From: an uncultured Haliea sp.
Lineage (GTDB): Bacteria > Pseudomonadota > Gammaproteobacteria > Pseudomonadales > Halieaceae
NCBI GenBank assembly: GCA_913062625.1
Contig: CAJXWP010000021.1
Span: forward strand, 1 to 37,725
Length of the DNA: 37,725 nt
Direction of reading: 5' to 3'
Both the position numbers and the translations under genes were made by a program. Below, one piece after another: positions 13,264-37,035 of the stretch; position 1 is the stretch's first letter, and each line of letters opens with the position of its first letter. Under the pieces are notes generated by a model that saw only the letters and a program-made list of their open reading frames with translations, was not told the origin of the DNA and made no database searches.

Positions 13264-13563
13264 GGCGCTCTGAGGTCGATTGGCTTAGCCGCTGATCGCG
13301 CCGACGCTGTTGGCGCGGCTCAAGCGGACTCAAGTTTCTTTTTCGGTCGAGGTCTCACAAAGTAGGACAACACGAATATCCTAGATCAGGTTCAACCCGC
13401 AGAGACGAGCGTCCACTCGATCGTAAGAGTCTGCGCACAGAATGACACGCGTAACTCTCCAAACGACATAATACGGCTTCAATGGCAATCGTTGTGATTT
13501 TTGGCGAATTGCGTGCTAGCCTTTGAGTCAAAGATCAACATTATCCACTGCTGGAGATTAGCA
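13264..13563. other. Intergenic region before the glycine-zipper lipoprotein
   Basis: No gene seen. It may include unrecognisable N-terminal remains of the hydrolase pseudogene on the minus strand and must contain the promoter of the lipoprotein gene on the plus strand. A GTG frame from 13501 leads into the lipoprotein but only adds residues ahead of its signal peptide. Confidence 0.4.
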
Positions 13564-15717: not shown

Positions 15718-15949
15718 CTAAGGCTCCTTATGCAAGATCCGCGCAGCGCGAATGGTTAGTAACACAATAATAGATCAGCCGATATTTTAGTGCTTGTCAA
15801 TTCGATAACTATTGTTACAAAACGAGTCAGCATTCGACCGTGCGGTAGATGAGCTGTTTTCGCCCGACCCTGGAATCTGTGTTATGTTTTAGCATCACGG
15901 AATCTCAAATTGCTACAGAATGACGATGGCGGCTAAGCGGGGACGCGCT

Positions 15950-17230: not shown

Positions 17231-17345
17231 GGAATATTTAGGATCCTGCCCTAGTACGGTTGGCTTTTGCAATTCTTGCACAAAAAATCGGCTGTCCCTG
17301 TTCTTGACGCGGTCGTATACTAATGTCTTTGTCGGCAGCAAGACA

Positions 17346-22345: not shown

Positions 22346-23269
22346 TTATAAGTGATCCAGCCCCTCTTGTAGCTCTATCCTAGGTAGCCATCCGGTTATT
22401 GTAGTAATCGGACCGTTGTCTACGACCCAGTCCTTGTGGCGTAGCTCACGCAATTTGGGTGGTGTCAGCATGGGTGCTTTCCCGGTGATTTTGGCGGCAT
22501 TGCTATTGACCACCGCGACACTATTTAAGAGCCAGTATGGGATGCGCCAGAGGCGAACCTTGCGGGACCAGTGGCTTGCGCTAATATTGGCCAATTCACG
22601 CCAGCTGTAACCGCCGTCTTTCCCATCACAGAGGACCAGAACCTGACGAATTGCTCCTTCGCTTTGCAGGCAGACGACGATAGCATCGACCAAGTCGGAC
22701 ACATGAATCAGCGACAGGCGCGCATCGGGTGATCCCGGTATCAGCGCTACCCCCCGCTGCATCCACTGAAATATTGGCAGCATCTCTTGATCGCCTGGCC
22801 CGTAGACGGGAGGTGGGCGTAGTATGATCCACTCAAGATCCGAAGCCTGTATGAGCAGTTTTTCTCCATCGCACTTGCTGTGAGCATACCATGATAGTTG
22901 CGGTTCGCGGGCGGCAAGGGATGACAGCAGCAACATTCTGGGTGGGCTTGGTTGCGCCTCGATAGCATTGAGTAACGCTAAGGTTCCCGCCACGTTCACG
23001 CGGTCAAATGCGCTTTGGGAGTTACCTCTGACGGCACCTGCGCTGTGTATAACGAAAGCACAATCCGTCACAAGTTGTTGTAGGGCGGAAGTATCTTCGA
23101 GATCTCCCTGAATCAAGGCGACGCCCTGTGCGACCAAATTTGATGCTTTAACGCGATTTCTCACGAGTGCCCGAACCTGAAAACCCTCCTCTCGCAAGCG
23201 CTGGCAGAGGGCTGTGCCAATAAATCCGGTGGCTCCCGTTACGGCGATGAGGCTGCCTTTGGGAGTCAG
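22346..23269 (-). CDS. NAD(P)-dependent epimerase/reductase, extended SDR (CerR-like)
   Basis: Rossmann-fold oxidoreductase of 307 residues. The cofactor motif VTGATGFIGTALC and the catalytic YAHSK are both present, as are the SGAVRGNSQSAFDRVNVAGT and PPPVYGPGDQEML blocks of the extended SDR family. The glycine motif is in frame only if translation starts before 23200, and the frame has no ATG, GTG or TTG between the upstream in-frame stop and that motif. The best start is a CTG at 23269 that overlaps the stop of the acyl ligase (CTGA) and lies 10 bp after GAGGG. In Caulobacter a related SDR, CerR, reduces 3-ketoceramide and neighbours the acyl ligase gene; I propose the same role here. A TTG at 23197 would remove the glycine motif. 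Confidence 0.85.
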   Translation of the reverse strand: MTPKGSLIAVTGATGFIGTALCQRLREEGFQVRALVRNRVKASNLVAQGVALIQGDLEDTSALQQLVTDCAFVIHSAGAVRGNSQSAFDRVNVAGTLALLNAIEAQPSPPRMLLLSSLAAREPQLSWYAHSKCDGEKLLIQASDLEWIILRPPPVYGPGDQEMLPIFQWMQRGVALIPGSPDARLSLIHVSDLVDAIVVCLQSEGAIRQVLVLCDGKDGGYSWRELANISASHWSRKVRLWRIPYWLLNSVAVVNSNAAKITGKAPMLTPPKLRELRHKDWVVDNGPITTITGWLPRIELQEGLDHL

Positions 23270-25101
23270 GCTGAAGCTACCCTCAGGCGAGCTGCTGCAG
23301 CGGCGGCGTTGAGTTTGTCGATATCATTGTTGCTAATAAAGTCGAGTCGTGCTTTTGCCCGTGACAGTTTGCCAGAAGATGTTTTGGGCAGAGAACGAGT
23401 GGGAACCAACTCTACATAACAGTCGAGACTCATTTCCATGCGCAACAGCGCCGTGAGGCGGCGCACCAAATTATTGCGCACGCCCGGATCTCTTTCACGG
23501 CATTGTACGAGTAGCACACAGAGCTCTTCGTCTTCACTATTCGGTGCGGAAAACGCTACGGAGTCACCGGCTCGAACTTCGGCTTGAGTTTCGGCGACAT
23601 GTTCAAGGTCTTGAGGCCAGATATTACGACCGTGAATGATAATCAGGTCTTTTTTGCGGCCAGTAATGGTTAGCTCGCCATCGGCTAGGTAGCCAATATC
23701 GCCGGTGTTGAGCCAGCCGTCTTCACTCAGCGCATGGCTGGTTTCTTCCGGCAGGTTGAAATATCCCGACATGACACTGGGGCCGCGTAGATAGATCACG
23801 CCACTCCGCCAGTCTTCCAGGACCTGGTTATCATCGCGGACCTCCACCTCAAAACTGGGCATCGGCGTGCCGCAATTAACGAAATGTCGACCTCGGCCCT
23901 GCCTATCTTCTTGGTCCATCACAATCACCTCGTGGTGATCCGAGAGGTGGTCGCTGTCGATATGGTGTGTGGTGAAGCCTGTCCAAAGCGGTGAAAAACT
24001 GACCCCAAGGGTACATTCAGCCATGCCGTAGCAGGCTAGGAGTGCGCGGCGATCAAAACCGGCCGGCTCCATCAATTCGGCGAAATACTCTAAGGTTTGT
24101 GGGTGGATCATCTCAGCGCCGATACCTGCTATGCGCCAATTACTGAGGTCGTAAGTTGAAATATCACTGGAACGTACCCGGCGAGCACAGAGATCGTAAC
24201 CGAATGAAGGAGCGAAGGAGATAGTGGCGCGGGTCTTGGTCATCAATGATAACCACTGGCGTGGCCGCATGGCGAACTCGCGGGTGTCTAGATAGTCGAT
24301 GGAAATCTGGGCAGCCATGGGAACCAATACGAAACCGACCAAGCCCATATCGTGGTAGAAAGGTAACCAAGACATCATACGGTCTGAACCGCTCATTTTC
24401 AGGCCATGTGAGACGATGCCGTGCAGATTGGCCATAGCGGTGCGGTGTTTGATGACGACACCTCGGGGGAAGCGCGTGCTGCCGGAGGTGTACTGGATAT
24501 AGGAAATATCGTCAGGTTCAGCCTGATGCAGAGGTTGTACATCGGTGGGCAGTGCATAAAATGCCTCTGGAGCGTCCACCATGCGCATGGAAAGACCTTC
24601 ACTAGCCTCCTGCAGGAAAGAAACGTACCCTTCCGAGGCCATACCAATCTCGGCGTCGCTGGCTTCCAGAAGCTGCTTCAACTGGGCCACGTAAGCACAG
24701 TGAGCGCCCACTTTTACGGAGGCTGGCAGTGTTACTGGAATTAGGCCAGCGTATTGACAGGCATAAAAAAACCGAATGAATTCAGGGGTTGTTTCTGCGA
24801 TAAGTGCAACGCGATCGCCTTTTGTCAGGCCCAGCCCCATTAACTTATGCGCTAGCTCAATGGCCTGCAGGCGCAGCTCGCGGTAAGGAATACTGGCGTA
24901 GATGTCACCTCGGCCGGTGTAGAAGTTTGAGCCGGTGTCGCCCTGAGCCGCATAGTCGAGTGCTTCGGTTAATGTAGCGAAATCGGCTGGGCGAAATGGC
25001 GTTAGATGGCGTGTGGGTGTGGCAATGACGTTTACATGTGACAATGTAGATTCCTCGTTTTCGGCGATCTGTCCGCCTCGCAACTCTTCGAAAATAGACA
25101 C
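23266..25101 (-). CDS. Fatty acyl-AMP ligase / acyl-CoA (acyl-ACP) synthetase, FadD-like
   Basis: ANL-superfamily enzyme of 611 residues that activates a fatty acid as acyl-AMP and passes it to a carrier protein or CoA. Motifs are IQYTSGSTRFPRG (A3, near residue 205), SWLPFYHDMGLVG, ACYGMAECTLG, LNTGDIGYL and GRKKDLIIIHGRNIWPQDLE, ending with a lysine motif SSGKLSRAK. The HDMGL block and overall layout are those of fatty acyl-AMP ligases that load carrier proteins. The start at 25101 is GTG with a weak ribosome site; there is no upstream ATG close by. In Caulobacter an acyl synthetase of this kind loads the ACP that feeds serine palmitoyltransferase, and here an ACP and SPT lie 10 kb away. 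It is the first gene of the acyltransferase/hydroxylase operon. Confidence 0.92.
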   Translation of the reverse strand: MSIFEELRGGQIAENEESTLSHVNVIATPTRHLTPFRPADFATLTEALDYAAQGDTGSNFYTGRGDIYASIPYRELRLQAIELAHKLMGLGLTKGDRVALIAETTPEFIRFFYACQYAGLIPVTLPASVKVGAHCAYVAQLKQLLEASDAEIGMASEGYVSFLQEASEGLSMRMVDAPEAFYALPTDVQPLHQAEPDDISYIQYTSGSTRFPRGVVIKHRTAMANLHGIVSHGLKMSGSDRMMSWLPFYHDMGLVGFVLVPMAAQISIDYLDTREFAMRPRQWLSLMTKTRATISFAPSFGYDLCARRVRSSDISTYDLSNWRIAGIGAEMIHPQTLEYFAELMEPAGFDRRALLACYGMAECTLGVSFSPLWTGFTTHHIDSDHLSDHHEVIVMDQEDRQGRGRHFVNCGTPMPSFEVEVRDDNQVLEDWRSGVIYLRGPSVMSGYFNLPEETSHALSEDGWLNTGDIGYLADGELTITGRKKDLIIIHGRNIWPQDLEHVAETQAEVRAGDSVAFSAPNSEDEELCVLLVQCRERDPGVRNNLVRRLTALLRMEMSLDCYVELVPTRSLPKTSSGKLSRAKARLDFISNNDIDKLNAAAAAARLRVASA

Positions 25102-25569
25102 TAACTACCGCTTCAGTAGGCAGTAATAAAGCGCATTTCAAAAATATCTAAGTGCCGTTTTGTTGTTGTTTATGCATGTAGATATACATGTTGGCACCCT
25201 TTGTTCAGGGCCCGGAAAAGAGCGGCCTGATGAAAGGGTATCCTACCATTTGGGGCTTTCGTACTTATAGGAAATAATACCGCTGGCTAGTGGGAACAAT
25301 CCCATTGAAAGATTCTAGAGGCCATTGCGCGGGCTCCTGCGGGGAGGCTAGAGCCGCCTTAGAGGTTGTCGAGTTAGGGCAGCTGTCGAGGTAAAATTGG
25401 GCATTATTTTATCTTAACTAATTGTTTTTAAAGTATTATTTTAGTATTTTTGCCGTGTCAGAGGTCAAGGTATTCACCGCGTATGCTTCAAGGCGATTTT
25501 TTGTGCAAGGACGCTGATCGAACACCGGGACGAGCTCGGGCTAGCCTCAGTCGGGTTAGTGTGGGACGC
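25102..25569. other. Leader of the acyl ligase operon with inverted repeat
   Basis: No gene seen. It is AT-rich, especially 25400-25460. On the minus strand TTGACC (complement of 25463-25468) followed after 16 bp by TACTAA (complement of 25441-25446) is a possible promoter, leaving a leader of over 300 bases. A perfect inverted repeat CATGTA-GATA-TACATG at 25175-25190 lies about 75 bp upstream of the acyl ligase start and could be an operator. Confidence 0.4.
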
Positions 25570-27528
25570 TCATGTGTCAGAGCCCTGAGCCCTCCACCAC
25601 GCCTGGAACATAAGGACTGACCATATCAGCTCAGAGTGATTGGCCCAGCCATAAAGATGCTGATGCCAGGCATCTCGGATGCTCGTCACGTCGAAAATGC
25701 CCTGGTCTGTCAGAGTCCTCTCTGAGATTAGATCTTCGGCCCAATCCCTAAGCGGGCCTACGAGCCACTCCTTGATCGGTACGCTGAAGCCCCGTTTTGG
25801 CCGGTCAATCAAGGCCGGCGGAACATACCGCCCCAACAGGTCTCTAAGCACGCGTTTACCCGTGTTACCGTCAAACAGATACGGGCTAGGTAGCGACCAA
25901 GCCAGTTCGAGCACCCGATGATCGAGCAGAGGTGCTCTTGCCTCAAGTCCCACTGCCATACTTGCTCGGTCAACCTTGACCAGAATGTCGTCTGGTAGAT
26001 AGCCCGTGTAATCATAGTGGAGCATAGCCAGCAGTGGGTCCTGAACATCTGCCCAGTAGGATGGGTCAGACAGTGGCGTTGCAGGATTGACCGCCCCGGA
26101 GACAAATTGGTCTATGGCTAGACACTTGTTGAACTTATTGGCCAGTATCTGCTGCGGAGAATTGGCAGCCCAGTTACACGAGCGCTGGCTGATTTTTCCA
26201 AGTTTGCGCGTCCAGCGCGGTACATTCATACCTTTGTCGGCATAGTTTTTCGCGTAGCGCCAGCTCCCTGTTCCCAGCGCACTCGTCACTGGACGGGCAA
26301 TACTCTTGGCGCTCTCTGGTATACGTTGCATATCACGCCAGTGATTCAAGCAGTTTCTATATCGTCGATAGCCGGCCATTTGTTCATCACCACCGTCTCC
26401 GGTCAGGACGACTTTAAGTTGTTCTCGAGCTAGTTTGCAGACTAGGTAGGTGGGAATCTGCGATGAATCTGCGAAGGGCTCGTCGTAAATATGGGGCAAC
26501 TGTTCAACCACATCCAGTGCCTGATCAGGTGTGACATACATCTCATGGTGATCGGTTTTGAGGTGTTTTGCCACCGCAGAAGCGTACTCCGCTTCATTAT
26601 ATTTCTCTTCCCAAAACCCGATGCTGAACGTCTTGACGGGTCGGTCTGACACCTTCTGCATGAGTGCGACGATCATCGAAGAGTCGATGCCGCCAGAGAG
26701 TAGCGCTCCGAGCTCAACGTCTGCCACCATGCGGTCTCCGACCGCCTGCTGCAGCACCCCATCAAGCTTATTGATGGCACCGTCATAACTCCCTGTGAAT
26801 CTATTTTTCTCTCCGTGCTCGGCGATGGCTTTCGCGGACCAGAATTGGGTCGGGTGCGCGTCCCAAGGCTTACAATCCTGAGGTATCTTTAGCAGACTGC
26901 CCGGGGGAAGTTTGCGTACCTTTCGATAGATAGAATTGGGCTGGGATACCCATCCATATTGCAGATACTGCCCCAGGGCGTCGCGATCCAGGCCATTTTC
27001 GAAATCTGGATGTTGGCGCAAGGCTTTGAGCTCTGAACCGAACAGGAAGCTGTTGCCGCACCAGCCATAATATAGTGGCTTTTTTCCTATCCGGTCTCGC
27101 GCCAACCATAGGCAGCGCTCCTTTCGGTCCCACAGTGCTAGCGCAAACATACCTTCGAGCTTGCCTACGGCTTTTTCTACACCGAAGTGCTGCACGGCTG
27201 CCAAAATTACTTCCGTGTCAGAGTGCCCGCGGTAGGGGTAAGCCGATAGGCCGTGTTCTTGCCGCAGTCGGGGGAAATTATAGACTTCACCATTGAACGA
27301 CAGTACGTAGCGGTCCGAGGCTGATACCATGGGCTGAGCGCCGGCCTCTGACAGATCGACGATGGACAGGCGGCGATGGCCAAGCGCCAGAGGAAACGCA
27401 GGATCCACCCAAACGCCACCCGCATCGGGGCCGCGATGAATGAGGGTGTCAGCCATCGTTTGACAGCGTCGGGCAAGGTCTGCTCGGGCGCCGCCTTTAT
27501 ACTGAATAAAACCGGTAATTCCACACAT
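25570..27528 (-). CDS. asnB: Asparagine synthetase (glutamine-hydrolysing) type amidotransferase
   Basis: Two-domain enzyme of 652 residues. The ATG at 27528 is chosen because it leaves cysteine 2 as the N-terminal glutaminase nucleophile (MCGITGFIQY), with an AGAGGCG ribosome site upstream; the frame open to 27612 would bury that cysteine. The glutaminase domain has RGPDAGGVWVD and LSFNGEVYNF; the synthetase domain has the PP-loop LLSGGIDSSMIVALMQ and LTGDGGDEQMAGYRRY. It starts 13 bp after the GT4 gene in an operon with an O-antigen-ligase-like protein. Such placement is common for amidotransferases that modify sugar carboxylates in surface glycans, but a plain asparagine synthetase cannot be excluded. 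Confidence 0.92.
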   Translation of the reverse strand: MCGITGFIQYKGGARADLARRCQTMADTLIHRGPDAGGVWVDPAFPLALGHRRLSIVDLSEAGAQPMVSASDRYVLSFNGEVYNFPRLRQEHGLSAYPYRGHSDTEVILAAVQHFGVEKAVGKLEGMFALALWDRKERCLWLARDRIGKKPLYYGWCGNSFLFGSELKALRQHPDFENGLDRDALGQYLQYGWVSQPNSIYRKVRKLPPGSLLKIPQDCKPWDAHPTQFWSAKAIAEHGEKNRFTGSYDGAINKLDGVLQQAVGDRMVADVELGALLSGGIDSSMIVALMQKVSDRPVKTFSIGFWEEKYNEAEYASAVAKHLKTDHHEMYVTPDQALDVVEQLPHIYDEPFADSSQIPTYLVCKLAREQLKVVLTGDGGDEQMAGYRRYRNCLNHWRDMQRIPESAKSIARPVTSALGTGSWRYAKNYADKGMNVPRWTRKLGKISQRSCNWAANSPQQILANKFNKCLAIDQFVSGAVNPATPLSDPSYWADVQDPLLAMLHYDYTGYLPDDILVKVDRASMAVGLEARAPLLDHRVLELAWSLPSPYLFDGNTGKRVLRDLLGRYVPPALIDRPKRGFSVPIKEWLVGPLRDWAEDLISERTLTDQGIFDVTSIRDAWHQHLYGWANHSELIWSVLMFQAWWRAQGSDT

Positions 27529-27541
27529 GGCAATTCGCCTC

Positions 27542-28795
27542 TTATTTTCGGCTTGCGGCTTGAGACACGACATTATCAAGCAGAGTAAGATAATTGCTGA
27601 CAGCGCGGTCAACAGAGAAATCTTCCGCTCTGCCTATTAATATTTCTTTTGGCGTGGGGCTGTCTAGTTCAGCGAGAATAGCCTTTGCCATTTCATCTGC
27701 ATTACCGATACTGACTAGAGTGCCACATCTTCCGTCCTCAAGGATTTCTCTTGAACCCCCTGGGCAATCGGTACTGATGACTGGGCATCCGCAGGCCATA
27801 GCCTGAATGAGCACACCGGGTAGGCCCTCATACTCTGATGATAATACGAGTGCAGAGGCCCGAGCCATGTACTGAAAAGGATTTTTTACAAATCCGGGCA
27901 TATAGACATCGGCCTGAATGCCCAGATTGCATGCCAACTGTTCAAGCTCCTCTCGTAGCCGACCTTCTCCCAAGATGACCAACCGCGCTTCCCTGTCTGC
28001 GCGGACGCCCGCAAATGCACGGATTAAGGTGGCGAAGTCTTTCTGTTCGGTTAGTCGTCCCGCTGCCAGAATGATCGGCGCTGCACCGCGAATAAACCAT
28101 GTGTGCTCTAGCGCCTCTTGTGCGTGGGCGCGCAGAGTGTCATCTACCACCGGATTATGAACCGCGGTCACAGAATCTCTCGGTAATCCAATAGTTGTGA
28201 TCAACTCGTTGGCCACATGATTCGATACTGCTATGACACGATCCGCTTTGGGGTAGATTCGCCGCACGATCTCGGGTAGATAGCGCCATCGCCATTTGCG
28301 AAAATTAGATGGCGCTGCACAGTAAGTCGACAGCGCAATACGCTCGCTCACGACGACAGGCACGTCAGAGCCTGACAGTTGCTTCGCCCAGATTGCTGAA
28401 AGGTTGGCGTAGGGAAGAGCGGATAAGATGACGTCAGGCTGGTTGTCCGCTATATAGCGTTGCAAGGACCGAATTCGCGCAACCTCTGGGGAGATTTTTT
28501 TCGCCAGCAAAACTGGGCGTAGTAAGGCGAGAAAGTCGCCTAAATTGGCACTCGCGGCGATCCAGCGGGCCCACAAATTACGGCTAGCGTGCAACTCAAA
28601 CATGGTTGCGCCGGCCGGTATATTATCAAGGTATGCACCCTTTGCCTGACATAGCACAAGCTCAACCTTACGTCCCTGTGCTAGGAAGCCTTCGGCTAAA
28701 TTCAACATTGACCGTTCAGCACCGCCACCCTCAAGTGATGGAAGAAACACTGCGATCTTTTCGGCTCGTATGCTCGTATGCGAATCTGTTGGCAT
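27542..28795 (-). CDS. Glycosyltransferase, family 4 (GT-B fold)
   Basis: Retaining glycosyltransferase of 417 residues. The acceptor domain starts almost at once (KIAVFLPSLEGGGAERSML), supporting the ATG at 28795, 4 bp after the stop of the ligase-like gene; an in-frame ATG at 28861 would overlap that gene by 62 bp. The donor domain shows ILAAGRLTEQKDFATLIRAF and YEGLPGVLIQAMACGCPVI, where the second residue of the EX7E pair is glutamine. That glutamine is seen in other functional GT4 enzymes. It lies between the O-antigen-ligase-like gene and asnB and probably adds a sugar to the glycan that they build. Confidence 0.91.
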   Translation of the reverse strand: MPTDSHTSIRAEKIAVFLPSLEGGGAERSMLNLAEGFLAQGRKVELVLCQAKGAYLDNIPAGATMFELHASRNLWARWIAASANLGDFLALLRPVLLAKKISPEVARIRSLQRYIADNQPDVILSALPYANLSAIWAKQLSGSDVPVVVSERIALSTYCAAPSNFRKWRWRYLPEIVRRIYPKADRVIAVSNHVANELITTIGLPRDSVTAVHNPVVDDTLRAHAQEALEHTWFIRGAAPIILAAGRLTEQKDFATLIRAFAGVRADREARLVILGEGRLREELEQLACNLGIQADVYMPGFVKNPFQYMARASALVLSSEYEGLPGVLIQAMACGCPVISTDCPGGSREILEDGRCGTLVSIGNADEMAKAILAELDSPTPKEILIGRAEDFSVDRAVSNYLTLLDNVVSQAASRK

Positions 28796-28799
28796 CAGT

Positions 28800-30122
28800 T
28801 CATGCGCTTGTCTGGGCAGAAGTAGGGGGCTGGGTATGAAAGCGGGAACTTGATGGCCCACTTTGATAGCTTATTAAAAGGGCTAATGGGAACCAGAATA
28901 ACATCCACTGGTCTCTGGGTCGCTCAATAAGCGTATCGACCCCCGTCATCATGGTGCAGGCTGCGAATAAGAGAATACAAAAAACACTGAAATCGCCCTG
29001 TTGCTTTCCACGCGACCAAGCGTAGCGAAAGGCGACAGCGAACAGCAAGAGAAACATAATCACTCCTACACTGCCTCCCTTCCAGAACACCTGCAGATAG
29101 GCATTATGCGCTGTTTCATAGGCAATCCCTGCCGCTTCAACGGACATTGGCGATATAAAACCCTGTCCGAAGAAAGGCGTGGACCTGGCCTCATTCCATA
29201 CCCCCTCCCAAATGAGTGGCCGCAACCCCAGGCCTCTTTGTAATGCACCTTCTAGTACCTCAGGAAAAGTCAGCAATAGCAGGCCCAGAAGGAGAGCAAA
29301 GGACGCTGCGTACAGCATGCTCTGCTTCTTAGATGTCAACCCGATCAAGCCCAGTAAGGCTATGAGTAATGCAACAAAGGCGGTTCGACTTTGGCCAAAC
29401 CACATGACACAGATAAATGCTGCGATGGCCATGAGAAATAGCAATTTTGACGTCCTCTGGGGAGCTTGCGTGATGAAAAAGGCTGCCAGTAGTGCAAATG
29501 CGCCATAGACATTGGCAAACTCATTGATGTTCGTTAAAGCGCCAATAGCGATCAATCGCGTTGCCGGAAACGGATTATGGCTATAAAAAATGAGAATGCT
29601 CACTACTGCCGTCACGGCAGCGAACAGCGTGGCAGCCTTTAACATACGTTCGAATAAACAGTGGTTCCAGTGCACTAGAAAGTGCGTAACAGCAAGAAAA
29701 CTGATGATGTGTGCTGCGATTGTGGCCTTTTGGCCAAGCCGGTACGCGTCCAGCGGGTCACTCCAGAGTCCTGCAAGCAGGAGATAAACGATGTAGGCGA
29801 CGATGGCTTGGAATACGGGGTGCTTCCAGATTTCTCTGATACTTCCGACGACGATAAAAAGGCTTAAAATAAACACAACTCGAGCGTAAAATTGATAAGG
29901 CTTACTGTAGTCATCAAAAATAAAATAGCTGCATAAGAATACCCCATAGGCTGCTAGTAACAGGAAAGGGAATGCTCGCCTTAAATAACCTGAGGAATTC
30001 AATGCTGTATTTTCACTGGATATAGAAGCCCGTTCAGCGTGTTCCGAAATCACGTGGTACCAATGCCATTGGATCATGCGACGGAGGGCGGTATTATACA
30101 CAGAAGGGCTCTTTGTCGGCAC
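28800..30122 (-). CDS. O-antigen ligase / Wzy-type polymerase family membrane protein
   Basis: A 440-residue polytopic inner membrane protein with about 11-12 hydrophobic helices and one large periplasmic loop (about 275-340) with WEGVWNEARSTPFFGQGF and ETAHNAYLQVFWKGG. The HNxxLQ block in that loop is the signature of the WaaL/RfaL/Wzy (O-antigen ligase) family. These transfer undecaprenyl-linked glycans onto lipid A-core or polymerise repeat units. The first about 45 residues are poorly conserved, so the start may be at a later methionine. It is first in the operon with GT4 and asnB. Whether it acts on lipopolysaccharide or another lipid cannot be told from the sequence. Confidence 0.88.
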   Translation of the reverse strand: MPTKSPSVYNTALRRMIQWHWYHVISEHAERASISSENTALNSSGYLRRAFPFLLLAAYGVFLCSYFIFDDYSKPYQFYARVVFILSLFIVVGSIREIWKHPVFQAIVAYIVYLLLAGLWSDPLDAYRLGQKATIAAHIISFLAVTHFLVHWNHCLFERMLKAATLFAAVTAVVSILIFYSHNPFPATRLIAIGALTNINEFANVYGAFALLAAFFITQAPQRTSKLLFLMAIAAFICVMWFGQSRTAFVALLIALLGLIGLTSKKQSMLYAASFALLLGLLLLTFPEVLEGALQRGLGLRPLIWEGVWNEARSTPFFGQGFISPMSVEAAGIAYETAHNAYLQVFWKGGSVGVIMFLLLFAVAFRYAWSRGKQQGDFSVFCILLFAACTMMTGVDTLIERPRDQWMLFWFPLALLISYQSGPSSSRFHTQPPTSAQTSA

Positions 30123-30154
30123 TATTAGTCTTTTTTAAGGTCTACTATCAGCTG

Positions 30155-30160
30155 TATACT
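30155..30160 (+). promoter_or_regulatory. Possible -10 element before the ceramide-synthase-like gene
   Basis: TATACT lies 42 bp upstream of the ATG at 30203 in the 80-bp divergent gap. The -35 position (about 30132-30137, TTTTTA) is poor. The region must also contain the promoter of the divergent ligase-like gene. Confidence 0.33.
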
Positions 30161-30202
30161 GTGATCTTTTGAGCACGTAGAGCGCGGTAAAACAAGGCAG
30201 CC

Positions 30203-31345
30203 ATGAGCCAAAATAACAATGTGCCCATCTCTGTGGAGGTGGTGACCGGGGCCAAGGCGTTGCGCCAGTTTTTGGCTCTACCTCATCGTATTTATGCGTC
30301 TGATCCTGCCTGGATTGCGCCGCTCGACTTCATGAAACGTGAGCAGCTTTCCAAGGCCAATCACTTTTTCGAACACGCCCGCTGGCGAGCTTGGATTGCC
30401 TATAGAAACGGTATCCCAGTGGGACGAATCACCGCACAGATTGACGAAATGCACCTGCAGCAACACGCCGACGCTGCCGGATATTTCGGCATGCTGGAGG
30501 CGGATGATGACCCGGCTATATTCTCGGCCCTGTTTGGCGCAGCCGAAGACTGGCTGAGAAGTGAGGGCATGCAGCAGGTGCGCGGCCCGTTTAATTTGCA
30601 CGTCAATGATGAGGTGGGGCTGCTAGTAGATGGGTTCGCCACGCCCCCCTATATATTAATGGGACATGCGCGCCAATGGTACGGGGCCGCGGTGGAAGCT
30701 CAGGGTTATGTGGGGGCGAAAGACCTTTTGGCTTATCAGGTACGTCCTGACTTTGAGGCTCCCCGTGTTATGGAGCGGCTGGCCAGTAGAGTCTCTCAGC
30801 GGGTAAAAGTTAGGCCTATAAGACGCAAGCAGCTGCTGGAAGACGCCCGCATAATGCTGGAAATTTTCAACGATGCGTGGCAGAACAATTGGGGTTTTGT
30901 GCCACTGGCAGAGGCCGATTGGTTTGAAACGGTGTCAACCCTGACCAAGCTGATGCCCGATGACTATATCCAGATCGCAGAGTATGACGGCGAGCCGGTT
31001 GCTTTCATTGTGGCGCTGCCGAATCTTAACGAGGCTGCCCATGACCTTAATGGCCGTTTGTTGCCCTTTGGTTGGGCCAAGCTCCTTTGGCGCCTTAAGG
31101 TGCGTCATCCCAAAACAGCCCGCGTCCCCCTGATGGGCGTTAAGCAGAGTTTTCAGCATTCTCGCCTCGGCCCGACTCTGGCTTTCATGGTCATAGACGC
31201 TGTGCGCAAGGCGTTACAGACCCGCGGTGTAAAGGATGTTGAGATGGGTTGGATACTTGAGGATAACGACGGCATGCGCAGTATCATTGAAACCATTGGC
31301 GGCGTCGCGTATAAACGTTACCGCGTATATCAAAAAGAATTGTAG
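30203..31345 (+). CDS. GNAT-fold N-acyltransferase, bacterial ceramide synthase-like
   Basis: A 380-residue protein with no signal peptide. It starts with a conserved segment (LPHRIYASDPAWIAPL, about 28-43), has GPFNLHVNDEVGLLVDGF and PPYILMGHARQWY in the first half, and a GNAT-like second half with FNDAWQNNWGFVPL, DYIQIAEYDGEPVAFIVALP and ARVPLMGV. Such two-half GNAT proteins include the Caulobacter bacterial ceramide synthase, which acylates the amine of 3-ketosphinganine. The AAGG ribosome site 5 bp before the ATG supports this start. The next gene begins 2 bp after its stop, and SPT and ACP genes lie about 4 kb to the right. I place it as bCerS by domain pattern and neighbourhood; identity with a homologue needs alignment. 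Confidence 0.82.
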   Translation: MSQNNNVPISVEVVTGAKALRQFLALPHRIYASDPAWIAPLDFMKREQLSKANHFFEHARWRAWIAYRNGIPVGRITAQIDEMHLQQHADAAGYFGMLEADDDPAIFSALFGAAEDWLRSEGMQQVRGPFNLHVNDEVGLLVDGFATPPYILMGHARQWYGAAVEAQGYVGAKDLLAYQVRPDFEAPRVMERLASRVSQRVKVRPIRRKQLLEDARIMLEIFNDAWQNNWGFVPLAEADWFETVSTLTKLMPDDYIQIAEYDGEPVAFIVALPNLNEAAHDLNGRLLPFGWAKLLWRLKVRHPKTARVPLMGVKQSFQHSRLGPTLAFMVIDAVRKALQTRGVKDVEMGWILEDNDGMRSIIETIGGVAYKRYRVYQKEL

Positions 31346-31347
31346 TT

Positions 31348-32166
31348 ATGCAGCTTGATCCTGAATCACATCAAATGGTCGCCATCGTGCTGGCAGGCGA
31401 TCGCACCAAGGCAGACTCATTGATCAATCATACCAAGGCCGGCAGCAAGGCCATGATTGATTTAGATGGCACACCTATGGTGCGCAGGGTACTCGACTCC
31501 CTGCGTGTTTCACGTGTTGTGAGCAGAATTTATATGAGCGGGCCTGAGCCCAGTGAGGTCGCTACTGATCCGGCCCTGCAAAAGTGGGTTGACGATGGCG
31601 AAGTGAGCTGGAGTGAGCCCGGTGCCAGCCCTAGTTCCAGTGCCTATGATGTTATGTCGCGTTTGGGTCCGGAAGATGCGGTACTGCTGACGACTGCCGA
31701 CCACCCGCTGCTGACGCCTGAAATTGTTGATGCATTCGGCCGCCAGAGCCTGGCAGACGATGTTGATGTCACGGTGGGTCTAGCGCCCTACGCACTGGTT
31801 GCTGAGGCCTATCCCGGCATACGTAAAACGGTGCTGCACTTCAGTGACGGGGATTTCTGCGGCTGCAACCTGTTTGCCTTCATTACCCCGGAAGGACGCC
31901 GCGCTGCCAAGTTCTGGCGCAAGATCGAACAAGAGCGCAAGAAGCCACTGGTGGTCATTGGCTTGCTAGGGTGGTGGGCAGTCATACGTTATCGCTTCGG
32001 ATTCTTGTCCCTTGAAGAGGCGCTGGCCAAACTGAGTAAGCGTCTGGGACTGCGCATGCGTGCGGTCATTCTGCCTTACGCGAATGCCGCTATCGACGTT
32101 GATTCAATCGCTGACTTGATGTTGGTCAAGGGCGCGCTGGCGAAAGCGGCGGAAGAAGACGCCTGA
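31348..32166 (+). CDS. MobA-like nucleotidyltransferase (GT-A fold)
   Basis: A 272-residue NTP_transf_3-type protein. The N-terminal nucleotide loop reads VAIVLAGDRTKADSLI, followed by the lysine motif KAMIDLDGTPMVRRVLDSL. The metal-binding aspartate is in LTTADHPLLTPEI. These place it with MobA, IspD and CTP-dependent sugar or alditol activators. It starts 2 bp after the GNAT gene and must share its regulation. I infer that it activates a head-group precursor (as a CDP- or GDP-linked compound) for the lipid made by the neighbours; the substrate is unknown. The C-terminal region has a hydrophobic stretch (VVIGLLGWWAVIRYRFGFLS, about 199-218) that could be a membrane contact, which is unusual for a soluble nucleotidyltransferase. 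Confidence 0.78.
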   Translation: MQLDPESHQMVAIVLAGDRTKADSLINHTKAGSKAMIDLDGTPMVRRVLDSLRVSRVVSRIYMSGPEPSEVATDPALQKWVDDGEVSWSEPGASPSSSAYDVMSRLGPEDAVLLTTADHPLLTPEIVDAFGRQSLADDVDVTVGLAPYALVAEAYPGIRKTVLHFSDGDFCGCNLFAFITPEGRRAAKFWRKIEQERKKPLVVIGLLGWWAVIRYRFGFLSLEEALAKLSKRLGLRMRAVILPYANAAIDVDSIADLMLVKGALAKAAEEDA

Positions 32167-32173
32167 TAAAGGA

Positions 32174-33121
32174 CTAATGACTGCGATTGATTTGCAGCGT
32201 TCTGTTTGTTCCTTCACAAAACTCTCCCACTGCAGGTCGGTAGCGTCGCGAATTGATGCTGACCTGCCAGCCTCCGCTAATGCGTTCTATTTGATAGCGG
32301 TTGTAATGAGCGATATCTGCCCCGTGCAGTCCCAGGGCAGAGGCCGACGGCACAGCGATAATGGGCAAGTAGCCATGGTGAGTCTGTAGTTCGTTGTAAT
32401 GTGCGCGATGCCCGTGTCCGTGTAAAACCAGTTCGGCGCCATTTTCTTCCAGCAGAGCCTGTATTTCGGGCGCATTCGTCAAGCGTTTACGCCACTTTTC
32501 TTTTCCCACCACGGGACAATGATGCAAATAGACGACCCGAAACAGACCTGCATCCGCCGTACGTTGCAATAGCGCGGGTAGTTTGCTCAATTGCTCGCTA
32601 TCGATTGTGCCTGTGGCCATAAGCGGTGGTTTGGGGCAAGCACTGGATAAGCCGATAAAGGCGATGGCCCCGCGCACTCTGAGGCTGGGGAAGCCCACTG
32701 TTTCTTGGGCGATGCTGAGGCCGCTGTCTGAGGACATATAGTCCTGCCATAAGGCCAAGGTCTCGCGCCAGGGTGCCGCAACACAGACATCATGATTGCC
32801 CGGCACCAGCGCTATTTTGTCGGGCTTACCCAGTTCCTGCAGCCATTGTCTGGCCTGCTCGAACTCCTGTGGCAAACCGATATGGGTCAGGTCGCCGGTG
32901 ACGAGTAGTTGATCGAGTTCCGATAATGCTAGGTCGCGCTGCAGTGCTTCGAGAACTTCCTTGCGGTGCTCGAAGCGGCGCTTTCTGCGCCAAGACAGGT
33001 AGCCAAGACCTCGCTTACTGAAAAGGTCGCGCCTGCGCACGCCTTCTAGGGAAGTGAGGTGAGGATCAGAGAGTTGTGCGAAGCACTGCGGCATAGCTTG
33101 ATGTTCCTCGTCGCCGATCAT
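32174..33121 (-). CDS. Calcineurin-like metallophosphoesterase
   Basis: Cytoplasmic binuclear-metal phosphoesterase. Motifs in order are QLSDPHLT (DxH), LLVTGDLTHIG (GD), LVPGNHD (GNH), YLHHCPVVG and HGHGHR (GHxH). The full set indicates an active enzyme of the 3',5'-cyclic nucleotide phosphodiesterase or lipid-phosphatase style. Length is 315 residues; an ATG at 33094 gives a shorter start at MPQCFAQ, right before the first motif. It is the last gene in a minus-strand series acp, spt, murA, mpe and starts 59 bp after murA. Removal of a phosphate from a lipid intermediate is a reasonable inference. Confidence 0.88.
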   Translation of the reverse strand: MIGDEEHQAMPQCFAQLSDPHLTSLEGVRRRDLFSKRGLGYLSWRRKRRFEHRKEVLEALQRDLALSELDQLLVTGDLTHIGLPQEFEQARQWLQELGKPDKIALVPGNHDVCVAAPWRETLALWQDYMSSDSGLSIAQETVGFPSLRVRGAIAFIGLSSACPKPPLMATGTIDSEQLSKLPALLQRTADAGLFRVVYLHHCPVVGKEKWRKRLTNAPEIQALLEENGAELVLHGHGHRAHYNELQTHHGYLPIIAVPSASALGLHGADIAHYNRYQIERISGGWQVSINSRRYRPAVGEFCEGTNRTLQINRSH

Positions 33122-33180
33122 TATAGCATTTACCGATCAGCGCCTGACATCGCAGCCAATAATGCACGCCTAGTTTGGTG

Positions 33181-34431
33181 TTAAGCGCGGCGGATGGAGG
33201 CCCCCAGCTGTGCAAGTTTGGTGTCGATATTGGCGTAACCACGGTCAAGATGATAGACACGGTCAATGACAGTTTCACCCTCTGCGGCCAGAGCAGCAAT
33301 GATTAATGAGGCAGACGCGCGTAAGTCAGTGGCCATGACCTGAGCGCCCTGCAGTCGCTGTCGGCCGCGCACAATGGCGGTTCGGCCCTGCAATTCAATA
33401 TCAGCCCCCATGCGTTGTAGCTCGGCGACATGCATAAAACGGTTTTCGAAGATGTTTTCTACTACCGTGGCAGAGCCTTCGGCTAACGCGTTGAGCGCCA
33501 TGAATTGGGCCTGCATGTCGGTGGGGAAAGCTGGGAAGGGTGCTGTGTGTATATTGACCGCCTTGCAGCGCCTGCCGCCAGTGTCGAGACGAATCCAGTC
33601 GGGCCCCAGTTTCAGCCGGCAGCCCGCCTGTTCAAGTTTGCCTAAGACGTGTTGTAAAAAGTTGGGGTTGGTCTCCAGCACGGTGATATCGCCCCGCGTA
33701 GCAGCGGCAGCGGCCAGAAAGGTCCCGGTTTCTATGCGGTCAGACGGCACCTTGTGGGTGGCGCCGTGCAGGTGTTTGACGCCTTCGATGGTAATGGTGC
33801 TGGTGCCGGCGCCGGTAATGTGGGCGCCCATAGATTGCAGTAACCGTGCCAGATCGCCTATTTCCGGCTCCATCGCACAGTTTTTGAGAGTTGTTACGCC
33901 CTCAGCCAGAGTAGCGGCCATTAAGAGATTTTCAGTGCCCGTGACTGAAGGGACATCAAACGCGAAATGTGCTCCTCGCAAACGCTTAGCCTTGGCTTTG
34001 ATGTAGCCCGCCTCGATGCGGATGTCTGCGCCCAGTGCTTCCAGTCCAACAATATGCTCATTTACTGGCCGCGAACCGATGGCGCAGCCTCCGGGCAGTG
34101 ATACATCGGCTTCCCCAAAGCGAGCCAGCAGTGGGCCGAGCAGAAGGATCGATGCGCGGATGGTCTTTACCAGCTCATAGGGTGCTCGCACCGAATGTAT
34201 TTGGTTGCTGTCGAGGACCAATTCGGTGCCAGAGCGCTCCACTTGCGTGCCGAGCAGTTCCAACAGCTGTAACGCTGTGCCTATATCACGCACATCCGGT
34301 AGATTACTGATGTGCAAGGGCTCGGCACTGAGCAAAGAGGCGGCAATAATCGGGAGTGCAGCATTTTTTGCACCTGCCACTGTGACTTCACCACGCAGTG
34401 GACCGTTACCCGTGATAAAAATTTGTTCCAT
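33181..34431 (-). CDS. murA: UDP-N-acetylglucosamine 1-carboxyvinyltransferase
   Basis: Transfers enolpyruvate from phosphoenolpyruvate to UDP-GlcNAc, the first committed step of peptidoglycan synthesis. The 416 residues match MurA. The sequence opens with GNGPLRGEVTVAGAKNAALP, and the catalytic cysteine is in LPGGCAIGSRPVNEHI; later motifs include PAFPTDMQAQFMAL and FENRFMHVAEL. The cysteine predicts normal fosfomycin sensitivity of this copy. Its ATG overlaps the SPT stop in a TGATG joint, so it is translationally coupled to the sphingolipid gene upstream. This is not the usual murA setting (bolA/ibaG, mla, his genes in many gammaproteobacteria). Confidence 0.96.
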   Translation of the reverse strand: MEQIFITGNGPLRGEVTVAGAKNAALPIIAASLLSAEPLHISNLPDVRDIGTALQLLELLGTQVERSGTELVLDSNQIHSVRAPYELVKTIRASILLLGPLLARFGEADVSLPGGCAIGSRPVNEHIVGLEALGADIRIEAGYIKAKAKRLRGAHFAFDVPSVTGTENLLMAATLAEGVTTLKNCAMEPEIGDLARLLQSMGAHITGAGTSTITIEGVKHLHGATHKVPSDRIETGTFLAAAAATRGDITVLETNPNFLQHVLGKLEQAGCRLKLGPDWIRLDTGGRRCKAVNIHTAPFPAFPTDMQAQFMALNALAEGSATVVENIFENRFMHVAELQRMGADIELQGRTAIVRGRQRLQGAQVMATDLRASASLIIAALAAEGETVIDRVYHLDRGYANIDTKLAQLGASIRRA

Positions 34432-35633
34432 CAGTGTGACCGAGTGCCGGTGATGAGGCCGGCAGCTTTGAGGTCGGCATAGGCGGCGATGATGGTATCG
34501 ATCTGCGCGCTCGTATGGGCTGCGCTGACGCTATTGCGCAGCAGGAAATTGCTCGAAGGTGAGGCCGGCGGAATGACTAGGTTGACGTACACTCCGGCCT
34601 CCATCAACGCCTTCCAGCAGTCGATTGTACGTGAGCGATCCTCCATTGCCACCGCAACTACCGGGCTGGGGGTAGGGCCCAGCGGCAGCCCGATAGCCTT
34701 TAACCCCTGATAAAGACGGTTACAGTTGTCCCACAATTTTGCCTGTAATTCCGGTTCAGCGGCAGTTATGCGCAACGCTTCACGTGTGGAGGCGATGACA
34801 GAAGGTGAGGACGATGCGGTGAAAATATAGGAGTTGATACAAAAGCGAATAGCTGCTAATTCTGCATGCCGGCTGACACAAAACCCACCGATGGCGCCTA
34901 GGCTCTTACTGAACGTCCCGCAAAAAAAGTCGACATCCGCTTCCACTCCAGCGGCTTGGGCTGCACCTCGCCCGGAAGCACCCATGACGCCCATGGAATG
35001 TGCTTCGTCTACAAACAGATAGCCGCCGTACTCGCGTTTCACTGCAGCAATTTCCTGCAGTGGGGCGACATCGCCTATCATAGAATAAATGCCTTCAGCG
35101 ATAATTAACGTCTGATTAGCACGATCACCCAGCCGGCGCAGTCGTTTGGCAAGGTCCTCGGGATCGCTGTGCTTGAAACGTATAACCTCCGCACCGCTCA
35201 TTTTGACCCCAGTGTAAATACTAGCGTGGCTGTCTGCATCAAGGAGAATAACATCTCCAGGGCCGGCCAACGTGGCGCACATGCCCATGGTTGCCGTATA
35301 GCCCGTGGAGAATACGATTGCGTTGTCTACGCCGTAGAACTGTGCTATCTCGGTTTCCAACGCTTGATGTTCAGCGAAAGAGCCGTTGGCGAGTCGGGAC
35401 CCGGTGGTGCCCGTCCCCCAGCGTGCTGTGGCGTCTTGGGCGGCTTTAATGCAGCGCGGATCAAAAGACAGACCGAGGTAATTGTTAGTGCCCGCGAGGA
35501 TAACGTTACGACCTTGCACTACGCCCTCTGTGGCAGACAGAATTTTTTCGGTAACGGCGCCAAAGGGCTCAACGTTGCGCTCTGCGAGCTCGGCCTGAAA
35601 GTCAGCCATAGGTTTAAATTTGTCGAACATCAT
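34431..35633 (-). CDS. Serine palmitoyltransferase-like alpha-oxoamine synthase
   Basis: PLP enzyme that condenses an acyl thioester with an amino acid and releases CO2. The 400 residues include the N-terminal NNYLGLSFDP block, the PLP-stacking histidine H136 (DADSHASIY), DEAHSMG (209-215) and the PLP lysine K243 in GTFSKSLGAIGGF. The family also contains BioF and KBL, but the upstream dedicated acyl carrier protein (35 bp apart) is the arrangement of bacterial SPT. I infer serine plus acyl-ACP giving 3-ketosphinganine. The start is at ATG 35633, with a second ATG at 35630. Downstream the stop overlaps murA. Distinguishing SPT from KBL/BioF by sequence alone is moderately secure; context raises it. 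Confidence 0.88.
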   Translation of the reverse strand: MMFDKFKPMADFQAELAERNVEPFGAVTEKILSATEGVVQGRNVILAGTNNYLGLSFDPRCIKAAQDATARWGTGTTGSRLANGSFAEHQALETEIAQFYGVDNAIVFSTGYTATMGMCATLAGPGDVILLDADSHASIYTGVKMSGAEVIRFKHSDPEDLAKRLRRLGDRANQTLIIAEGIYSMIGDVAPLQEIAAVKREYGGYLFVDEAHSMGVMGASGRGAAQAAGVEADVDFFCGTFSKSLGAIGGFCVSRHAELAAIRFCINSYIFTASSSPSVIASTREALRITAAEPELQAKLWDNCNRLYQGLKAIGLPLGPTPSPVVAVAMEDRSRTIDCWKALMEAGVYVNLVIPPASPSSNFLLRNSVSAAHTSAQIDTIIAAYADLKAAGLITGTRSH

Positions 35634-35668
35634 GGTTTTGATCTGCCTCGGGAATTCACCAGTGACGC

Positions 35669-35911
35669 CTAGAGATTGAGTTGTCTGACCTTGGTTGCCA
35701 GGTCACCAATCGTGTTGACGTCAGGAAGGATATTTAAGGGAATGGATATATCAAAATGATCCTCGATTTTTTCGATAAACTCCATCACTTCTAGGGAGCT
35801 AAGTCCCATATCTGCCACCAGCGAAGTGTTTTCAGACAAAACCAGCTTATTTTTATTCTGTGATTCGAGCGCGCTGCAGAGGAAGTTGAGGTATTCCGGA
35901 TAATCGATCAT
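35669..35911 (-). CDS. Acyl carrier protein of the SPT operon
   Basis: An acidic four-helix ACP of 80 residues. The phosphopantetheine attachment site is DMGLSSLEVMEF with serine 39; the usual DSL triad is SSL, an uncommon but accepted variant. Its ATG at 35911 starts the operon, with the SPT gene 35 bp downstream. Stand-alone ACPs next to SPT supply the acyl thioester to SPT in Caulobacter and Sphingomonas-type bacteria. It would be loaded by a fatty acyl-AMP ligase (candidate at 23266-25101) after activation by a phosphopantetheinyl transferase (candidate at 302-1087). The operon is divergent from the ELM1 gene. Confidence 0.93.
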   Translation of the reverse strand: MIDYPEYLNFLCSALESQNKNKLVLSENTSLVADMGLSSLEVMEFIEKIEDHFDISIPLNILPDVNTIGDLATKVRQLNL

Positions 35912-35988: not shown

Positions 35989-37035
35989 ATGCCAGTGATT
36001 TGGTTGATAGACGCTTATCGCGCAGGAGAGCGTGGGCAGGTGCGTGCCTTAGTTGATGCACTAGGTTGGCCCTGCGAGGTTAAAGTGCTGAGCTATCGCA
36101 GTCATGTGTTTTTACCGCATGTATTGGGCCAGTCCACCCTGCAAGGTATTACCTCCGAGTCCGCTGCGACACTCAGTGCGCCTTGGCCTGATCTGGTAAT
36201 CAGTAGTGGCGTGCGCAATGAGCCAATCTGTCGTTGGATTCGAGCCCAATCAGGAGGGCGAGCACGTTATGTGCATGTTGGGCGACCTTGGGGTGCATTG
36301 GATTCTTTTGATCTGGTGATTACCACGCCGCAGTATCGCGTGCCGCATCACCCCAAAGTGTTAAACAATATGCTGACTCTGCACAGTGTCGCAGCGCCGC
36401 GCTTGGCGCAGGCTCGAATCCAATGGGAGGCAGCGTTTGCTGACCTGCCAAGTCCGCGTTTCGCGGTGATGGTGGGTGGTGACAGCGGTCCCTTCACGCT
36501 GGGGCCGCATGCGGCAGCCCGTTTGGGCGCGGAAGCATCCCGCATGGCGAAAGCTCACGGCGGTTCACTGCTGGTCTCCACCAGTTCGCGCACCAGCTCG
36601 GCGGCACAGGACGCACTCCAGTCTGCTATTACCGTGCCGAGCTACTTTTATCGCTGGCCGGGCAGAGGTTTGGACAATCCCTACGAGGGTATTTTGGCGT
36701 GGGCTGATCGTTTGATTGTCACCGGTGATAGTATCGCAATGTTGTCGGAGGCCTGCGCCACGGGTAAGCCGATGGCCATATTTGATCTCGGTGGCATGCG
36801 TGAGCTTCCTGATCGAACGACTAGGGATTTTCGCTTAGGAGGTGCGCTTTATGCGGCACTGCTGCGCTGGTTCTGGCAGCCGCTGAGTCGAGATATTACT
36901 CTGGTACACAGTCAATTGCATGAATTAGGCTGTGCCACCTGGATGGAGGAAGCGCTGATTATGCCAAGGGTGCCAGCGCAGACCGACCTGCAACGCGCTG
37001 TCGTGGCCGTGCATAAGCTATTTGGCGAGGGCTGA
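35989..37035 (+). CDS. ELM1/DUF1022 family protein (GT-B-like)
   Basis: A 348-residue cytoplasmic protein of the mitochondrial fission ELM1 family, whose fold resembles GT-B glycosyltransferases. Seen are the start VIWLIDAYRAGERGQVRALV, the DLVISSGVRNEP block, VHVGRPWGALDSFDLVIT, GGDSGPFTL, and the donor-site-like WADRLIVTGDSIAMLSEACA with GKPMAIFDL. Many bacteria have this family near lipopolysaccharide or lipid genes; the biochemical activity is not known to me. The gene is divergent from the ACP operon (77 bp gap) and overlaps the end of the ABC transporter gene by 18 bp in convergent orientation. A transferase role in headgroup glycosylation is a guess from fold and context. Confidence 0.85.
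   Translation: MPVIWLIDAYRAGERGQVRALVDALGWPCEVKVLSYRSHVFLPHVLGQSTLQGITSESAATLSAPWPDLVISSGVRNEPICRWIRAQSGGRARYVHVGRPWGALDSFDLVITTPQYRVPHHPKVLNNMLTLHSVAAPRLAQARIQWEAAFADLPSPRFAVMVGGDSGPFTLGPHAAARLGAEASRMAKAHGGSLLVSTSSRTSSAAQDALQSAITVPSYFYRWPGRGLDNPYEGILAWADRLIVTGDSIAMLSEACATGKPMAIFDLGGMRELPDRTTRDFRLGGALYAALLRWFWQPLSRDITLVHSQLHELGCATWMEEALIMPRVPAQTDLQRAVVAVHKLFGEG

Follow-up and report, generated by a model that had tools for sequence, protein, structure and literature searches.

The locus described here raises the question of what a complete set of ceramide genes does in a gammaproteobacterium of the family Halieaceae. It lies in a stretch of 37,725 nucleotides from an uncultured Haliea sp. (assembly GCA_913062625.1, contig CAJXWP010000021.1). 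This stretch, the window, is the entire contig C21 of a 3.07 Mb draft genome that is divided into 117 contigs and is 96.67% complete. An earlier note, made from the sequence alone, proposed that five genes between positions 22346 and 35911 encode a ceramide/sphingolipid pathway. Lipid A genes are absent from the window's genome, as in a Sphingomonas-type envelope. The reading favored here, at a probability of about 0.74, is that an anionic complex sphingolipid is exported by the Lpt machinery and replaces lipid A and lipopolysaccharide in the outer membrane of this organism and of part of its family. Both the replacement and every lipid structure named below are what we infer from the genes. 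The new element is the loss of lipid A genes, which lies outside the window's coordinates and was not visible to the earlier reader.

The five ceramide genes are intact. Their reading frames are open with no internal stops, and a program-made list of open reading frames gives four of them exactly and the fifth from a later start. All five proteins have one-to-one matches, at 38-54% identity, in the sphingolipid cluster of Escherichia coli PN43, and the proposed pathway is supported by these matches. The E. coli B orthologs have been studied. In the PN43 record, the genes for serine palmitoyltransferase (SPT), acyl carrier protein (ACP), short-chain dehydrogenase/reductase (SDR), and ligase, together with yghO, lptF, and lptG, occupy a single stretch. 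The comparison was made with the E. coli proteins in place of CC_1154 and the other Caulobacter proteins. The gene set of the rhodobacterial ceramide pathway (SPT, AcpR, AasR, reductase, and N-acyltransferase) is complete in the window, its members near one another and in conserved order.

The predicted SPT (34431-35633, minus strand) passes NCBI's curated SPT equivalog NF047599 with 587.8 bits against a cut-off of 500. It scores 321.6 bits on the BioF model (cut-off 426.45) and 290.8 on the KBL model (cut-off 460). An identity as KBL or BioF is rejected, both scores being below their own cut-offs and the SPT model being passed; this rests on curated scores, no tree of the enzyme family having been built. 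The protein is 54% identical to the E. coli cluster SPT, and its top match in the PDB is 2x8u (403.9 bits), which we take to be the SPT of Sphingomonas wittichii. The dedicated ACP (35669-35911, minus strand), predicted to be AcpR-like, matches PF00550 with 40.3 bits and is 38% identical over 71 amino acids to the E. coli cluster ACP. Its motif GLSSLEVME is present in 17 of 19 aligned rows, the remaining two being GLTSLEVME (G023) and GLSSIDVME (G043). The ligase (23266-25101, minus strand; 45% to the E. coli cluster ligase) was first described as an acyl-AMP/CoA ligase. It passes NF006624, a fatty acyl-AMP ligase model, with 767.7 bits (cut-off 600) and is therefore an acyl-AMP/acyl-ACP ligase, likely an AasR-like acyl-AcpR synthetase, and not a CoA ligase.

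The SDR (22346-23269, minus strand) is present and its family was correctly named. It matches PF01370, the NAD-dependent epimerase family, is 41% identical to the E. coli cluster SDR, and is likely a CerR-like, NAD(P)-dependent ceramide/3-ketosphinganine reductase. A standard start codon does not hold, as no ATG, GTG, or TTG start preserves the Rossmann motif. The gene seems to begin instead at a CTG that overlaps the stop of the ligase, an overlap found in the window and in some relatives. The GNAT-like N-acyltransferase (30203-31345, plus strand) is likely a bacterial ceramide synthase. Its match to PF00583 is weak (22.0 bits, cut-off 20.7), as are its matches to solved structures. It is a full-length relative of E. 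coli YghO (48% over 373 aligned positions, 380 amino acids each) and is 50% identical to P. veronii YghO and 46% to a Roseomonas GNAT protein. E. coli YghO also came up when plasmid records were searched by tblastn with the GNAT protein as query. According to the available part of PMC9386255, the Caulobacter N-acyltransferase CC_1154 has yghO as its ortholog in E. coli B, so that the likeness to bacterial ceramide synthases proposed for this protein was found.

The ligase and SDR adjoin each other, as do ACP and SPT, both pairs on the minus strand. The two operons of the earlier note are better described as at least three blocks: ACP/SPT and ligase/SDR on the minus strand with genes between them, and GNAT on the plus strand. 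The order of ACP, SPT, a nucleotidyltransferase, and GNAT is identical in 18 of 19 loci fetched from relatives, the remaining stretch (L040) having GNAT and no SPT. Because this order recurs, the arrangement is beyond chance. Sphingolipids were said to be uncommon in Gammaproteobacteria. This is fair, but the pathway has already been described there, in E. coli B (PMC9386255) and in Azotobacter vinelandii and Pseudomonas luteola, where sphingolipid genes are given (PMC11324152), both sources being available in part. In the same part of PMC9386255, the Caulobacter ligase charges a dedicated ACP, and acyl-AcpR is the preferred substrate of the Caulobacter, E. coli B, and S. wittichii SPTs.

What sets this locus apart is the genome around it. 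Lipid A genes were sought by profile search in 57 genomes, the window's and those of 56 relatives. A carrier is defined as a genome with the GNAT gene, and 28 of the 57 are carriers, the window's included. LpxC has no match in 20 genomes, all carriers, and is found in 29 of 29 non-carriers. LpxB has no match in 19, which are the LpxC-less genomes minus G014. The Kdo transferase WaaA has no match in 21, which are the LpxC-less 20 and G025 (66% complete). G014 lacks both LpxC and FtsZ, the neighbor of lpxC, and has lpxD, lpxA, and lpxB; its absence of LpxC is therefore treated as an assembly gap. With G014 left out, 19 genomes (the window's and 18 of the 56 relatives) are without LpxC, LpxB, and WaaA. 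The LpxC model matches the controls E. coli, Caulobacter, Synechococcus, and Bacteroides, which makes it unlikely that the missing matches are due to divergence.

The loss is also seen at the places where the genes belong. The fabZ and ftsZ loci were examined in 11 of the 19 lpx-less genomes, chosen before the loci were seen, several of which are 98-100% complete. In all 11, BamA (cut by a contig end in G000), a Skp-like protein, FabZ, RnhB, and DnaE are together on one contig with no match for lpxD, lpxA, or lpxB. In six of six comparison genomes (G013, G014, G015, G018, G020, and G027), lpxD, lpxA, and lpxB all surround fabZ. RnhB is found at the fabZ locus in 17 of 17 loci. BamA, LpxD, FabZ, LpxA, LpxB, RnhB, and DnaE were named by NCBIfam in G015 and/or G004; Skp is a guess, having no family match. 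The SecA, LpxC, FtsZ, and FtsA markers were named as well, and two markers provisionally labeled AccA and ispC/dxr were set aside as guesses. FtsZ and SecA stand together without lpxC in 11 of 11 genomes, and lpxC lies between them in five of five comparison genomes. Gene position points to lipid A as ancestral, since the lpx genes lie at the same places in all the comparison genomes, whether carriers or the non-carrier G027.

The link between cluster and loss extends across the family. Among 140 family genomes, 42 are carriers and 107 have LpxC; LpxC is missing from 26 carriers and seven non-carriers. A good-quality set was defined as at least 90% complete and at most 5% contaminated (78 genomes, 30 carriers, 60 with LpxC). 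Within it, 18 of 30 carriers are without LpxC, one of them being the assembly gap G014, versus none of 48 non-carriers. The link between carrying the cluster and losing LpxC has a Fisher p of 4e-10 with G014 counted as a loss, related genomes not being independent. A tree was built for 42 genomes from up to 12 housekeeping proteins; it is a quick tree with many half-filled rows and a long-branch warning (G038 and G043). The lpx-less genomes fall into four clades: the window's group; G030; G022, G024, and G035; and G043, which belongs to another family. G014 was set aside. All four clades consist of carriers. A wider tree of cluster genes adds G492, which has no LpxC match and stands beside G484, which has LpxC.

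Though these counts are striking, a bystander cluster has to be weighed. The cluster could make sphingolipids while lipid A was lost for other reasons, the outer leaflet being held by phospholipids, surface glycans, or proteins. Several results weigh against replacement, and some of them favor the bystander. Twelve good-quality carriers retain LpxC, so that having the cluster does not entail the loss. Seven non-carriers of the family also have no LpxC match, all outside the good-quality set; G456 (70% complete) is one of them. By events, the link is weak. Carrier branches make up 56% of the tree length of the family and 33% of that of the whole sample, so four of four losses fall on carrier branches with a chance of 0.09 or 0.01, respectively. 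With the window's own clade excluded, the chance for three of three is 0.17 or 0.04. A sign test on independent pairs gives a median p of 0.25, with zero opposing pairs and G014 counted as a loss. The absence of lipid A genes refers to LpxC, LpxB, and WaaA by genome profile and, for LpxA and LpxD, to the fabZ locus alone; LpxK, KdsA, and KdsB were outside the search. No CDP-alcohol transferase of the CpgA type was found among the 20 window and 10 next-door proteins scanned against Pfam. The genome counts are striking, and the event counts (p 0.01-0.25) only suggestive.

Against the bystander stand the good-quality family genomes, where all 18 that lack LpxC are carriers, and the export machinery. 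LptD is kept in 18 of the 19 lpx-less genomes, with no match in G001. LptF/LptG has exactly two matches, a single pair, in 17 of 19; G001 and G009 have four, one of those in G009 being below the cut-off. A pair is on the same contig as the GNAT gene in 13 of 19, and the pair of the window's genome is found on the adjoining contig. When 20 fetched loci were placed in a tree, the cluster-adjacent pairs formed their own clade for both LptF and LptG, G043 included, and all seven tested pairs of lpx-less genomes with a single pair are of this cluster kind. LptF of the E. coli cluster joins the cluster clade, and its LptG is unplaced. A separate clade holds the LptF/LptG of the non-carriers G019, G026, G027, and G029 and the second pair of G023. 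Since LptD and LptF/LptG of the cluster kind are kept, some lipid is probably still exported to the surface in the lpx-less genomes. Taken together, we consider the bystander account unlikely.

The carriers that retain lipid A genes hold different combinations of these pairs. Both LptF/LptG kinds are found in G023, and only the cluster pair is above the cut-off in G013, G015, G018, and G032. This distribution fits a sequence in which the cluster was gained, the standard LptF/LptG was then lost, and lipid A was lost last, but the fit draws on few genomes and on a tree with a long-branch warning. A third, divergent LptF/LptG kind, apart from the standard and cluster pairs, was also seen: the second pair of G020 (contig C6) groups with an extra pair in G001 (contig C11).

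An ordinary accessory sphingolipid pathway beside lipopolysaccharide, as expected in E. coli B, is by gene content true of relatives such as G013, G015, G018, and G020, where both gene sets occur. In the window's genome, by contrast, LpxC, LpxB, and WaaA have no match, and both lpx loci are continuous without lpx genes. For this genome an accessory role is contradicted unless an unrecognisable lipid A pathway exists, and we regard it as very improbable.

The SPT-like enzyme could instead make another aminoketone lipid (a sulfonolipid, a 1-deoxy base, or other) and not 3-ketosphinganine. Substrate choice in this enzyme family is not certain from sequence, and the cysteate-C-fatty acyltransferase 28eh is among the PDB relatives of the window's enzyme. 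That match reaches 184.9 bits against the 403.9 bits of 2x8u, the curated SPT equivalog is passed, and its four partners in the cluster are ceramide-pathway genes. The chance of a different product therefore appears slim. Gaps in draft assemblies, accepted for G014, are next to impossible as the general cause of the missing lpx genes, being contradicted in the 11 genomes examined of the 19, the window's included, where flanking genes stand together on one contig without lpxD/lpxA/lpxB and likewise without lpxC.

Replacement by a sphingolipid would require more than ceramide, and the wider cluster holds candidates for the further steps. Its consensus order is ABC (ATP-binding cassette) exporter, ELM1, ACP, SPT, MurA, phosphoesterase, nucleotidyltransferase, GNAT, ligase, SDR, LpxL1, hydroxylase, and LpxL2. 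Among the 19 loci compared, GNAT and the nucleotidyltransferase are present in 19, SPT, the phosphoesterase, and ELM1 in 18, and MurA in 16. L047 and L051 are without MurA, L051 also has no LpxL or hydroxylase gene, and the stretches L037, L039, and L056 stop before the last genes. Recent transfer of the cluster among the sampled genomes was rejected, as the cluster tree mostly tracks the housekeeping tree, with G024 as the clear exception. The cluster is also present in L138 (CAMAXE010000013.1), a metagenome-assembled sequence titled Klebsiella pneumoniae; the title looks wrong.

Between GNAT and SPT lie three genes. The MobA-like nucleotidyltransferase (31348-32166, plus strand; PF12804), a candidate head-group enzyme, is beside GNAT in every locus and is 34% identical to the nucleotidyltransferase that follows the GNAT gene in Roseomonas. 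It could be CC_1153- or CpgD-like. The metallophosphoesterase (32174-33121, minus strand; PF00149), likewise a candidate head-group enzyme, is 41% identical to the phosphoesterase of the Roseomonas stretch. MurA, the UDP-GlcNAc enolpyruvyl transferase (33181-34431, minus strand), scores 579.5 bits on TIGR01072 (cut-off 392.7) and has the GGC loop, in which GGC ends at residue 116. On the other side of ACP and SPT, an ELM1 family protein (35989-37035, plus strand; PF06258) is a putative glycosyltransferase, as ELM1 family proteins presumably are. It is followed by the C-terminal part of an MsbA-like ABC exporter (37018-37725, minus strand; PF00005) that is cut by the contig end. The remainder of this exporter opens another contig of the window's genome, C18, about 25 residues being present on both contigs. 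In G012, the order runs on unbroken through the full exporter, and the full homolog resembles the HepA and MsbA models below their cut-offs.

Downstream of the SDR are two LpxL-type acyltransferases and a hydroxylase, all on the minus strand. LpxL1 (21271-22257; PF03279) has the HX4E motif in 17 of 17 rows. The protein of the fatty acid hydroxylase/sterol desaturase family (20670-21302; PF04116) has its His boxes in 16 of 16 rows and is 27% identical to a Roseomonas sterol desaturase. LpxL enzymes carry HX4D/E. In LpxL2 (19728-20660; PF03279), HX4Q replaces this motif in 16 of 17 rows, and LpxL2 may therefore be inactive or altered. The one exception, G004, is a cut locus in which the match was to LpxL1. 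The nucleotidyltransferase, phosphoesterase, and hydroxylase counterparts on the Roseomonas plasmid all adjoin the GNAT gene.

A glycan insertion (25570-30122, minus strand) separates the ligase from GNAT. It encodes an asparagine-synthase-like amidotransferase (PF00733), a GT4 glycosyltransferase (PF13692), and a Wzy/O-antigen-ligase-like membrane protein (PF04932). These genes form a variable insertion found at the same place in some relatives only; core membership in the cluster was rejected, as many relatives are without them there. Beyond the hydroxylase and acyltransferases, an AsmA-like protein (13936-15717; 90.1 bits, below the cut-off of 412) is a possible lipid carrier near the cluster. 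A beta-lactamase-fold protein and a 2-oxoglutarate-Fe(II) (2OG-Fe(II)) oxygenase (15920-18101) adjoin the cluster, and both are also near it in G014.

Contig C18 continues the cluster with LptG, LptF, ELM1 genes, several sulfotransferases, a DAGK_cat kinase, and a Tam41-like gene. On its stretch L187, the DAGK_cat gene (12908-13873) and the Tam41-like gene (11967-12911) are 28% and 36% identical, respectively, to neighboring Roseomonas genes. A CpgB-like lipid kinase and its CDP-diacylglycerol-synthase-like partner are thus both found on C18, the alignments being to Roseomonas and not to Caulobacter proteins. The several sulfotransferases and ELM1 genes beside LptF/LptG lie at 3457-15907 of L187; a sulfotransferase is present in G022 too, as is ELM1 in G043.

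By homology, the ligase would load a fatty acid on the dedicated ACP, and SPT would condense the ACP-bound acyl group with serine. The GNAT protein would then N-acylate, and the SDR would reduce the ketone. The C18 kinase and Tam41-like protein, with the nucleotidyltransferase and phosphoesterase of the window, are proposed to build a phosphate-based head group, with ELM1 proteins and sulfotransferases as possible sources of added sugars and sulfate. Flipping of the lipid would fall to the ABC exporter, and its transport to the surface to the cluster-specific LptF/LptG with the retained LptD. What is said here of the head group, of extra acylation and sulfation, and of polysaccharide attachment is guesswork based on gene content.

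A more ambitious account joins the path and the product. Halieaceae would show living steps of the surrender of lipid A, in which the cluster and its own LptF/LptG were gained, the standard LptF/LptG was lost while lipid A was still made, and lpxA/B/C/D and waaA were then lost. The replacement would moreover be built like lipid A, with a ceramide hydroxylated by the cluster hydroxylase, extra acyl chains from LpxL-type enzymes, an anionic character from phosphate and sulfate, and, in some species, a polysaccharide attached through the O-antigen-ligase-like protein. As a whole, this account is tentative and we would not expect all of it to hold.

Sphingolipids in place of lipopolysaccharide are known from Sphingomonas (PMC10964400) and, according to the available part of PMC12275187, from laboratory Caulobacter. 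The E. coli cluster (aasR, epi, acpR, spt, and yghO in E. coli B; ECD_02850-02854) has the same five genes as the window, the identities above being those of the PN43 copy, as well as an LptF/LptG pair, and E. coli is also a gammaproteobacterium. In contrast, E. coli keeps lipid A, as shown by the LpxC match in the E. coli control. Of the 23 features annotated in the E. coli record, 11 proteins were compared, and they gave no match to the nucleotidyltransferase, phosphoesterase, hydroxylase, LpxL-type, or ELM1 proteins of the window. No lipid kinase or sulfotransferase is annotated among the 23.

The ceramide/CPG2 region of Caulobacter crescentus (CC_1168-CC_1152) shares the five ceramide genes, a lipid kinase, a CDP-diacylglycerol-synthase-like gene, nucleotidyltransferases, and a second LptC/F/G, as listed in the available excerpt of PMC11324152. 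The kinase CpgB makes ceramide 1-phosphate (PMC10331486, excerpt), and Caulobacter survives lipid A loss partly through its anionic sphingolipid (excerpts of PMC10331486 and PMC12275187), which in the latter source partly supports mutants without lipopolysaccharide. There, the loss is that of a laboratory mutant, whereas here it arose in nature and more than once. No CpgA-type transferase appeared among the window and next-door proteins scanned, and sulfotransferases and ELM1 are extra here, as far as compared.

Sphingomonas makes sphingolipids and is naturally devoid of lipid A (PMC10964400; PMC11087976, in the part available). It differs in belonging to the Alphaproteobacteria and in its scattered genes, as given for S. 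wittichii and Zymomonas in the excerpt of PMC11324152. Halieaceae, in contrast, are Gammaproteobacteria with one cluster and close relatives that have both gene sets. Nitrosomonas is perhaps a parallel case: of nine lipid A genes, lpxK is the only one that N. europaea was reported to have (PMC3087551), and sphingolipid genes are given for a different species, N. eutropha (PMC11324152), each in the part of the source available.

Among the loosely matching, openly licensed papers listed, none concerns lipid A loss in Halieaceae, a weak sign of novelty. 'Ca. Litorirhabdus singularis' IMCC14734 is a cultured seawater strain (PMC10100682, available in part), and the available part of that paper contains no mention of lipopolysaccharide. 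This strain is without lpx genes and is in culture, so the replacement idea is directly testable. In environmental Gammaproteobacteria, lipid A genes appear to have been lost on four or more occasions, always in genomes with a sphingolipid cluster, and close relatives that have both gene sets are extant. The pattern suggests that the Lpt bridge, known for lipopolysaccharide transport, can serve sphingolipids.

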